In this document: piece after piece, positions 17,074 through 34,438 of the stretch
How the letters are laid out: every line of letters starts with the position of its first letter
How positions within the stretch are numbered: position 1 is the stretch's first letter
Origin: Candidatus Magasanikbacteria bacterium GW2011_GWC2_37_14
GTDB lineage: Bacteria > Patescibacteriota > Patescibacteriia > Magasanikbacterales > UBA922
DNA length: 40,315 bases
Assembly: GCA_000990355.1 (NCBI GenBank)
Contig: LBSX01000008.1
Coordinates: 1 to 40,315, forward strand
Direction of reading: 5' to 3'
Translations under genes and position numbers: made by a program
Notes under the pieces: model-generated
Database searches by the model: none
What the model was told of the DNA's origin: nothing
What the model saw: the letters and a program-made list of their open reading frames with translations, nothing else

Positions 17074-17100
17074 TGCCTAACAATTTATGCTCCCGTAGTT

Positions 17101-17130
17101 TCCGCCAAAGGCGGATCAGCCTTGGGCTGA
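17101..17130 (+). repeat. Two-hairpin insertion in the D-arm of tRNA-Arg
   Basis: 30 bp: TCCGCC-AAA-GGCGGA followed by TCAGCC-TT-GGGCTGA. Removing it restores GTT^CAACGG, the D-arm sequence of the nested intact tRNA-Arg. There is no target duplication. Confidence 0.75.
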
Positions 17131-17139
17131 CAACGGATA

Positions 17140-17280
17140 CCTGCCCGCTCGTGCCTCACATGGCAGGCGGGCCTGCCCGCCATGGCCTGAGCCCTCGTAG
17201 TTCAACGGATAGAACAAACCCGTCCTAAGGGTAAAATAGAAGTTCAATTCCTCTCGAGGGCACAGGCGAAGGCAGGCGGG
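17140..17280 (+). repeat. Palindromic element carrying an intact tRNA-Arg
   Basis: A tRNA-free palindrome (17140-17171, CCTGCC...GGCAGGCGGG) is followed by a tandem copy split by tRNA-Arg: left arm CCTGCCCGCCATGGCCTGA (17172-17190), right arm CAGGCGAAGGCAGGCGGG (17263-17280). The arms pair as CC.GCC.GCC...GCCTG with regularly spaced mismatches. The same arms flank the tRNA-Ala nested at 17497. Confidence 0.7.
17191..17262 (+). tRNA. tRNA-Arg(CCT), intact, nested in the interrupted tRNA-Arg
   Basis: 72 nt. Acceptor GCCCTCG / CGAGGGC, discriminator A, D-arm GTTC-AACGGATA-GAAC, anticodon loop GTCCTAA (CCT, reads AGG), T-loop TTCAATT. There is one A-C mismatch in the T-stem and one A-A at the base of the anticodon stem. 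CCA is not encoded. Confidence 0.85.
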
Positions 17281-17296
17281 GAACAGATCCGTCCTA

Positions 17297-17327
17297 CTGC
17301 GCCCATCATAGCTTTAGCGACGATGGG
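17297..17327 (+). repeat. 31-bp hairpin inserted in the anticodon loop of tRNA-Arg
   Basis: A stem CCCATC / GATGGG encloses AGC-TTTA-GCG. Removing 17297-17327 restores the loop GTCCTAA exactly, i.e. insertion at position 37/38. It has the same length and core (AGC, TTA, GCGA, GGG) as the insertion at 34368-34398, with paired base changes in the stem. Confidence 0.75.
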
Positions 17328-17345
17328 AGGATAAAATGGGAGTTC

Positions 17346-17379
17346 TGAGCCTCTTCGGCTCATCCGCCGATGAGGCGGA
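17346..17379 (+). repeat. Two-hairpin insertion in the T-loop of tRNA-Arg
   Basis: 34 bp: TGAGCC-TCTTC-GGCTCA followed by TCCGCC-GATGA-GGCGGA. Removing it restores TTC^AATT, the T-loop of the nested tRNA-Arg. Confidence 0.72.
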
Positions 17380-17407
17380 AATTCATACTGGGGGTACCAG
17401 GGCTGTG

Positions 17408-17436
17408 CCGCGTAATGGCGTAGCCATTTTACGCGG
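17408..17436 (+). repeat. Palindrome abutting the interrupted tRNA-Ala
   Basis: CCGCGTAA...TTACGCGG with an inner TGGC-GTA-GCCA. It ends within the first two bases of the outer tRNA-Ala. It could be a processing signal or another inserted palindrome. Confidence 0.6.
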
Positions 17437-17470
17437 GCCTATGGTCTCGTGGTATGACGCGGCATTCGCA

Positions 17471-17593
17471 CCGTGCCCGCCAGTGCCTGAGCCTCTGGGC
17501 CTGTAGCTCATTTGGTAGAGCGCTACATTCGCATTGTAGAGGTAAGGGGTTCGATTCCCCTCAGGTCCACAGGCACAGGCGATGGCAGGCGGG
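17471..17593 (+). repeat. Palindromic insert carrying an intact tRNA-Ala
   Basis: The left arm (17471-17496) and right arm (17570-17593) are inverted repeats sharing CC.GCC.GCCA..GCCTG.GCCT, the same family as the arms around tRNA-Arg at 17172-17280. Between them lies tRNA-Ala(CGC). Confidence 0.72.
17497..17569 (+). tRNA. tRNA-Ala(CGC), intact, nested
   Basis: 73 nt. Acceptor GGGCCTG / CAGGTCC with G3-U70, discriminator A, D-arm GCTC-ATTTGGTA-GAGC, anticodon arm CTACA-TTCGCAT-TGTAG, T-arm AGGGG-TTCGATT-CCCCT. All stems are paired. CCA is not encoded. Confidence 0.93.
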
Positions 17594-17629
17594 TTGCCGA
17601 TGCCCGAGTCCGATTCTCGGTAGGTCCAC

Positions 17630-17808: not shown

Positions 17809-17824
17809 ATTTAACATTCACTCA

Positions 17825-18026
17825 CTCGTTCACGCGCGCACAAACACAAGGTAAAAATTTAGAGGCGAGGAAGAGTGGTACGCCGTAGCGAGAGCGAAGG
17901 CGGATTTGTTCTGCTGTTTGAGCTATGTAATAAGCGAGTTCAGAACAAAAACGAATGACGAGGCCTAAATTTTCTGTAGTGTTTGTTTAGCGCGAAGTTT
18001 TTGCTCCACTTTTTTGAAAAAGTGGA
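17825..18026. repeat. About 200-bp palindromic repeat, copy 1
   Basis: Starts CTCGTTCACGCGC and ends in CTCCACTTTTTTGAAAAAGTGG. Nested inverted repeats: ACAAACAC/GTGTTTGT, AAATTTAG/CTAAATTT, TTTGTTCTG/CAGAACAAA. The second copy is at 34238-34438 in the same orientation. This element plus the sites above fill the gene-free stretch 17630-18130. Confidence 0.8.
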
Positions 18027-19269: not shown

Positions 19270-19340
19270 GGGCCTGTAGTATAACGGTAATACGCGACCA
19301 TGGCATGGTTGAGTCCGGGGTTCGATTCCCCGCAGGTCCA
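19270..19340 (+). tRNA. tRNA-Ala(GGC)
   Basis: 71 nt. Acceptor GGGCCTG / CAGGTCC with G3-U70, discriminator A, D-arm GTAT-AACGGTA-ATAC, anticodon arm CGACC-ATGGCAT-GGTTG (GGC), T-arm CGGGG-TTCGATT-CCCCG. Uninterrupted, CCA not encoded. Confidence 0.95.
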
Positions 19341-19347
19341 CACATTA

Positions 19348-34208: not shown

Positions 34209-34237
34209 TTAGGACAAAATAAATATCAAAACACTAA

Positions 34238-34438
34238 CTCGTTCACGCGCACACAAACACGAGGTAAAAATTTAGAGTCGAGGAGGAGTGGTACGCCGTA
34301 GCGAGAGCGAAGGCGGATTTGTTCTGCTGTTTGAGCTATGTAATAAGCGAGTTCAGAACAAAAACGACTTGCCTCGCCGAAGCCTTAGCGAAGGCGGGAT
34401 GACGAGACCTAAATGCTCCACTTTTTTGAAAAAGTGGA
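34238..34438. repeat. About 200-bp palindromic repeat, copy 2, with a 31-bp insertion
   Basis: Matches 17825-18026 closely over its first 130 bases. At 34368-34398 a 31-bp hairpin (GCCGAAGC-CTTA-GCGAAGGC core) interrupts the sequence ACGA^ATGACGAG, which is uninterrupted in copy 1. The remaining part of the gap (34439-34622) holds GC-rich palindromes (GTCGCGTC/GACGCGAC; CCCCTCT/AGAGGGG) and no convincing gene. Confidence 0.82.

Follow-up and report, generated by a model that had tools for sequence, protein, structure and literature searches.

The window, that is, the whole stretch of 40,315 nucleotides analysed here (G000:C8:1-40315), belongs to a genome of 1.10 Mb that is 100% complete, is assembled in 24 contigs and holds 48 tRNAs. 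Two interrupted tRNA genes lie close together in it, an Arg(CCT) and an Ala(CGC), and within each, flanked by inverted arms, lies a complete tRNA with the identical anticodon. ARAGORN and Rfam, run on the full window, called solely the inner gene at each of these two loci, Arg(CCT) at 17191-17262 (54.6 bits) and Ala(CGC) at 17497-17569 (68.3 bits), which confirms the complete enclosed tRNAs proposed by an earlier, sequence-only reading of the locus. Among its 48 tRNAs, the genome has no Arg(CCT) or Ala(CGC) other than these two inner genes. The parts of both nests, with insert boundaries placed by hand, are the following:

17089..17100, + strand: outer tRNA-Arg(CCT) segment 1, GCTCCCGTAGTT (read from the sequence; the joined outer gene is called as Arg(cct))
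17101..17130, + strand: double-hairpin insert TCCGCC..GGCGGA-TCAGCC..GGCTGA in the D arm, between GTT and CAA (near-identical copies are dispersed in relatives)
17131..17139, + strand: outer tRNA-Arg segment 2, CAACGGATA (sequence, joined call)
17140..17171, + strand: empty palindrome CCTGCCCG..GGCAGGCGGG, without a tRNA (listed with 20 other matches in the genome)
17172..17190, + strand: left arm, family A, CCTGCCCGCCATGGCCTGA (the same arm is found in L213, L214 and others)
17191..17262, + strand: inner tRNA-Arg(CCT), intact, single genome copy (ARAGORN, Rfam)
17263..17280, + strand: right arm of the Arg nest, CAGGCGAAGGCAGGCGGG (sequence)
17281..17296, + strand: outer tRNA-Arg segment 3, GAACAGATCCGTCCTA, ending at nt 37 (sequence, joined call)
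17297..17327, + strand: imperfect hairpin insert of 31 nt at Arg 37/38 (sequence)
17328..17345, + strand: outer tRNA-Arg segment 4, AGGATAAAATGGGAGTTC (sequence, joined call)
17346..17379, + strand: double-hairpin insert in reversed orientation in the T-loop, between GTTC and AA (same type and same site in L046 and L036)
17380..17399, + strand: outer tRNA-Arg segment 5 (to 17396) with encoded CCA at 17397-17399, T stem 3/5 (sequence, joined call)
17435..17470, + strand: outer tRNA-Ala(CGC) nt 1-37 (joined call; uninterrupted orthologue in L032)
17471..17496, + strand: left arm of the Ala nest, CCGTGCCCGCCAGTGCCTGA followed by GCCTCT (sequence)
17497..17569, + strand: inner tRNA-Ala(CGC), intact, single genome copy (95% identity to a free-standing Ala(CGC) in G015)
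17570..17593, + strand: right arm of the Ala nest, CAGGCACAGGCGATGGCAGGCGGG (sequence)
17594..17628, + strand: outer tRNA-Ala(CGC) nt 38-73 (sequence, joined call)

Once the inserts are removed, ARAGORN calls the outer genes as a tRNA-Arg(cct) of 72 nt and a tRNA-Ala(cgc) of 71 nt, just as had been rebuilt by eye, and the inserts sit where they had been placed, near 12/13, 21/22, 37/38 and 56/57 in the Arg gene and at 37/38 in the Ala gene. The joined outer Ala reads GGGCCTATGG..TTCGCA/TTGCCG..GGTCCA (the slash marks the join) and keeps the complete acceptor, anticodon and T stems claimed for it (7/7, 5/5 and 5/5 pairs, with 3/4 in the D stem). The outer Arg pairs at 7/7 positions in the acceptor stem (G-U pairs included), 4/4 in the D stem and 4/5 in the anticodon stem, and it is partly decayed, since its T stem pairs at only 3/5. 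Its encoded CCA is present as described, while the compensatory stem change described along with it is weak given this decay. Identity between inner and outer genes is 84% for Arg and 69% for Ala, and the folding z-scores are -6.2 for the Arg locus and -5.3 for the Ala locus. Group I introns, already dismissed on the grounds of size, find no support here either, the inserts being far too short and the window having no matches at the Rfam gathering score except to tRNA families.

A further hairpin, CGCGTAATGGC..GCCATTTTACGCG, lies between the outer Arg and the outer Ala (17409-17435), and it offers an alternative pairing to the D/anticodon region of the outer Ala (17406-17416 with 17454-17464). 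The surroundings contain a dispersed repeat of about 205 nt, found in the window at 17810-18026 and 34232-34438 and in several more copies in the genome at 81-98% identity; the copy on contig C15 is followed by the CCTGCCCG palindrome.

A search of related genomes for uninterrupted orthologues, the check that had been put forward for these genes, was successful for the outer Ala. This type of Ala(CGC) is uninterrupted in G014 (both halves matched contiguously), G022, G007, G032 and G037, and some uninterrupted relatives have its odd T-loop TCCGATT as well. The inner type stands alone in G015 (95%) and G024 (91%). Another genome, G335 (locus L275), has an independent nest of one Ala(CGC) in another, again at 37/38, in which the inner gene is of the type that is outer in the window. 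In both G032 and G037 an Arg(CCT) is nested in an Arg(CCT), and the D-loop site is that used in the window. The nesting in the window is more than chance, considering the uninterrupted relatives of the outer Ala, the recurrence of nests in dozens of genomes and the folding z-scores. The tRNA order Arg(CCT)-Ala(CGC)-Ala(GGC), in which Ala(GGC) is at 19270-19341 of the window, recurs in relatives (L032, L033, L039 and L189), and the locus is therefore an old tRNA cluster. When L029 and L030 are compared, the T-arms of the inner and outer Arg(CCT) look swapped, so that the acceptor stem of the outer gene is mismatched in L030, which suggests recombination between nested copies.

We scanned about 760 sampled genomes of the same phylum (Patescibacteria/CPR, bacteria that are tiny and for the most part uncultured), all of them assemblies, and found about 50 nests, in Arg, Thr, Ala, Val, Ile and Lys genes. 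The hand list holds 52, with the insertion in the D-loop in 30 and in the anticodon loop in 22. Left-arm and right-arm patterns matched 17 and 18 of 381 class genomes, respectively (29 in union), with pattern-reversed controls near zero, and the 22 and 18 matches of these class scans that were inspected were without exception a tRNA within remnants of a same-type tRNA; the arm patterns skew this sample toward Arg, Thr and Ala. An arm-independent pattern (two D arms too close to each other) matched 24 of 380 phylum genomes, also with a reversed control near zero, a few of these 24 matches being non-tRNA or non-nest, and it added nests in Val (TAC, CAC, GAC), Ile (GAT, TAT), Lys (CTT) and Arg (TCT, GCG). 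No nests were found with it in 41 non-CPR genomes (about 190 Mb), where its two matches were not tRNA-like. An early, looser contig pattern was discarded as unspecific in GC-rich genomes, only five CPR loci from it having stood up, and a phage origin was rejected after a scan of viral contigs, in which the pattern was not followed by a T-arm at any of the 45 matches. We found no report of same-anticodon nested tRNAs in the open-access literature, nor any bacterial description there of such nesting as a replacement of essential genes.

Inner and outer anticodons are identical in 18 of the 18 clean ARAGORN calls of joined outer genes. Fifteen of these calls come from a set of 19 joined outers, several of them badly broken, and the others are L330, L334 and L336; in D-loop nests the outer anticodon is legible without any editing. 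Such agreement is very unlikely to result from a random draw of isoacceptors (about 1e-10 by our own estimate, which ignores shared ancestry). The remaining loci look consistent with the same rule, with less certainty. Nests include the essential anticodons Thr GGT, Thr TGT and Arg TCT. The first cases were all C34 anticodons (CCT, CGC, CGT), and the idea that only dispensable isoacceptors are hit was ruled out by the nests of Thr GGT/TGT, Arg TCT, Ile GAT and Val.

The outer genes are found in very different states. They are structurally perfect in L029, L087, L214, L221 (middle gene), L268 and L275, and broken or ruined in L030, L210, L212, L213, L219, L220 and L267. L221 spans both states, its innermost and middle Thr(CGT) being intact and its outermost ruined; several levels are also present in L188, L215, L277, L334 and L348, and some nests are three deep, the innermost tRNA being intact and the outermost decayed. 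At L036, L191, L199 and L205 an intact Arg gene adjoins a fossil Arg half. This series is the trail expected from insertion, takeover, decay and loss. In L214, L268, L275 and the window Ala, the outer gene is intact and the identity between inner and outer is merely 65-84%; therefore, the inner gene came from elsewhere and was not copied in place, and duplication of the outer gene in situ is ruled out for these four. For L224 and L279, where the copies are near-identical, in-place duplication is possible. L224 (G330:C12:3164-3287) has an unusual layout, with four Arg(CCG) 5' parts at a 47-nt period followed by one inner tRNA and one right arm, and the 3' halves of its inner and outer genes are identical.

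The conserved trait across cases is the geometry: the tRNA lies at the exact centre of a palindrome with its mature ends (nt 1 to 73 or to CCA), and the inverted repeat extends the inner acceptor stem and sits within a host tRNA loop. Arms of the GC-rich families A, B and C turn up in many genomes, and in the hand list family B goes with Arg only (12/12) and family C with Thr only (10/10). Other lineages have unrelated, locus-specific, AT-rich arms, such as TCCACTATCCGG[Lys]CCGGATAGTGGA, TTTAAAATCTT[Ile]AAGATTTTAAA and CCCTGTTAAAT[Val]ATTTAACAGGG; the arm of L341 has no other occurrence in its own genome. Because the arms are locus-specific in these other classes, a single transposable element cannot explain all cases, and one mobile element with fixed ends was rejected as the sole explanation on the same AT-rich arms. 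No free-standing palindrome bearing a tRNA was found outside tRNA genes in the 381 class genomes. The mobile palindromes suggested by the sequence-only reading are only half supported: families A, B and C recur across genomes, but the arms of other lineages are unrelated to them and tRNA-bearing copies outside tRNA genes were not found.

Some palindromes carry no cargo. CCYGCCCG..GGCRGGCGGG has 21 matches in the genome, mostly empty (reversed control 0), and empty palindromes lie within tRNA loops at 17140-17171 of the window and in L055, L040 and L046. The double hairpin is found as well in tRNA loops of G005 (L040), G020 (L046), G010 (L036) and G062 (L205). The left flanks at the tRNA sites of the window are GGATA and CGCA, with no GTAG-type tag, and eight empty copies have GGTAGG; inspection of the sequence at the window Ala site revealed no obvious target duplication. 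RAYT genes were among those that the sequence-only reading had proposed to look for. The two Y1_Tnp genes of the genome are both flanked by unrelated hairpins instead of nest palindromes, and a link to these RAYT-like genes was discarded for that reason. In L055 (1501-1548; G000:C7:68130-68177), an empty 48-nt palindrome occupies the D-loop of a Lys-type 5' fossil, and downstream there is a small ORF resembling a GIY-YIG endonuclease and then an intact Lys(CTT) that shares the 5' end of the fossil. Palindromes of 39 nt are also found in frame in two protein genes, one CCA-adding-enzyme-like and one helicase-like, read through without a stop (L049, G000:C1:87195-87233; L054, G000:C7:53881-53919).

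One account of these loci, also raised from the letters alone, is splicing: the inserts would be introns, or the inner tRNA would be cut out and the outer halves, held by the arms, joined, so that one locus would give two tRNAs. Archaeal split tRNAs have GC-rich complementary arms, which the nest arms resemble; besides, the arms pair at the insertion point, the Ala insert and one Arg insert are at the canonical 37/38 position, and the outer cloverleaf is intact at several loci. However, splicing could not mend many of the outer genes (L030, L210, L212, L213, L219), in multi-level nests the outermost layers are wrecks, the insertions are spread over various positions (12/13, 21/22, 34/35, 35/36, 37/38, 56/57) and the same anticodon is already supplied by the inner gene. 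Moreover, neither RtcB (PF01139) nor an EndA-type splicing endonuclease (PF01974, matched among the controls in four archaea only) had a match in this 100%-complete genome, and we consider splicing very improbable. A variant in which both tRNAs are used, the inner freed by RNase P/RNase Z and the arm-clamped outer halves joined by an unknown enzyme, seems if anything harder still to credit; if true, bacteria would have a split tRNA with another tRNA for an intron. Least credible of all, to the point of being negligible, is an assembly artefact or a chance tRNA-like flank: these are metagenome assemblies and palindromes can mislead assemblers, but the same architecture is found in dozens of independent assemblies from many families, the pattern-reversed controls are near zero and uninterrupted orthologues of the outer genes exist.

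A more serious alternative, which we hold to be possible though unlikely, is that the palindrome came first, a hairpin entering a tRNA loop and a same-anticodon tRNA being captured later at its tip, for example by break repair at the palindrome centre or by self-primed (snap-back) copying at the acceptor stem. It accounts for the absence of free-standing cassettes, for the empty palindromes in tRNA loops (17140-17171, L055, L040, L046) and for the position of the tRNA, with its mature ends, at the exact centre. The locus-specific arms of L341, L347, L351 and L353 extend the acceptor stem as self-primed copying of the leader would give, and we propose that such copying at the acceptor stem would create arms of this kind. 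On the other hand, the cell would have to survive without an essential tRNA between the two steps, or have a second copy, the right anticodon is not expected from random capture, and families B (Arg 12/12) and C (Thr 10/10) look like lineages of arm plus cargo. Alternatively, ready-made nests may have spread horizontally, with homologous recombination in the tRNA and the DNA on either side of it and only a few true insertions. This would explain why G032 and G037 share an Arg nest, its site and its arm type, and why inner and outer T-arms look exchanged between them. Yet sites, arms, anticodons and flanking genes differ across families and both orders of the Ala types are found at one site (the window and L275), which makes this a rather improbable general explanation, less so than splicing.

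Taking all this together, we favour as the probable origin of both window loci a serial replacement of tRNA genes by the nesting of a same-anticodon cassette. The cassette would be an intact tRNA gene with its ends extended by an inverted repeat, whose single strand would fold as a hairpin with the tRNA at the tip. It would enter a resident tRNA gene of the same anticodon at an exposed loop, either the D-loop or the anticodon loop, destroying that gene, by a chemistry that, as a first guess, may be hairpin-mediated single-strand insertion as in REP/IS200-type palindromes, acting in trans. The insertion would be tolerated because the cassette supplies a tRNA for the same codon, so that there would be no lethal intermediate even for essential anticodons, and mismatched insertions would be removed by selection. 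The inner gene would become the working gene, RNase P and 3' nucleases being able to free its tRNA from a long transcript, while the outer halves would turn into a pseudogene, gain more hairpin inserts and point changes and finally be lost, at times leaving a fossil half beside an intact tRNA. An inner gene hit in turn would give nests of three or four levels. Since the inner gene is intact and the sole copy in the genome, it is presumably the working one, and we infer that it is expressed and the outer one is not. Tolerance through a replacement tRNA, the other suggestion of the sequence-only reading, is well supported by the same anticodon in all readable cases, by inner genes that are always intact and, in this genome, sole copies, by outer genes from perfect to ruined and by decay that proceeds outward. 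Several observations count against serial replacement: perfect outer genes would be predicted by a functional outer tRNA as well, the locus-specific arms speak against one transposable element for all cases, the Y1 genes of the genome lack the nest palindromes on their flanks, and the absence of free-standing cassettes speaks against a mobile cassette, unless targeting is strict.

tRNA genes are regarded as among the most constrained in the genome. Here, they would turn over through invasion from within by a tRNA of the same anticodon, and nesting would be a route to replace an essential gene without a lethal intermediate. The nested loci would then be a readable fossil record of tRNA replacement, as well as a natural experiment on the insertion of palindromes into folded loops. 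In Patescibacteria/CPR, tRNA finders report the inner gene alone, and the interrupted outer gene escapes them.

Several known systems share some of these traits. REP/REPIN sequences and their RAYT (IS200/IS605-type Y1) are similar in their short, GC-rich, dispersed palindromes, some of them inside genes, and two Y1_Tnp genes are present here. However, the nests carry a tRNA cargo at the palindrome centre and lie in tRNA loops, no GTAG tag adjoins the tRNA insertion sites, hairpins of another kind flank the Y1 genes here, and the phylum as a whole does not share a single family of nest arms. Rickettsia palindromic elements (RPEs) are also inserted in frame in protein genes, as the 39-nt palindromes of L049 and L054 are, and in RNA genes, but to our knowledge none carries a replacement for the gene that it breaks. 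Integrative elements that target tRNA genes through tyrosine integrases likewise insert in tRNA loops and restore the broken tRNA; they restore just the 3' part, via att identity, and carry an integrase, in contrast to the nests, which hold a whole second tRNA in inserts of about 30-200 bp, too short to encode one. Mobile DNA has been proposed as the disrupter of the Caldiarchaeum tRNA-Thr and of archaeal intron-containing and split tRNAs (PMC3293823), which resemble the nests in their interruption at 37/38 or in the D-loop and in the tRNA fragment beside an intact gene, although here the splicing enzymes were not found in the genome, the insert is a tRNA of the same anticodon and the outer genes decay. 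Finally, a tRNA gene within another gene is known from the tRNA-Sec gene nested in selB (PMC8124441), where the host gene is protein-coding and stays intact.
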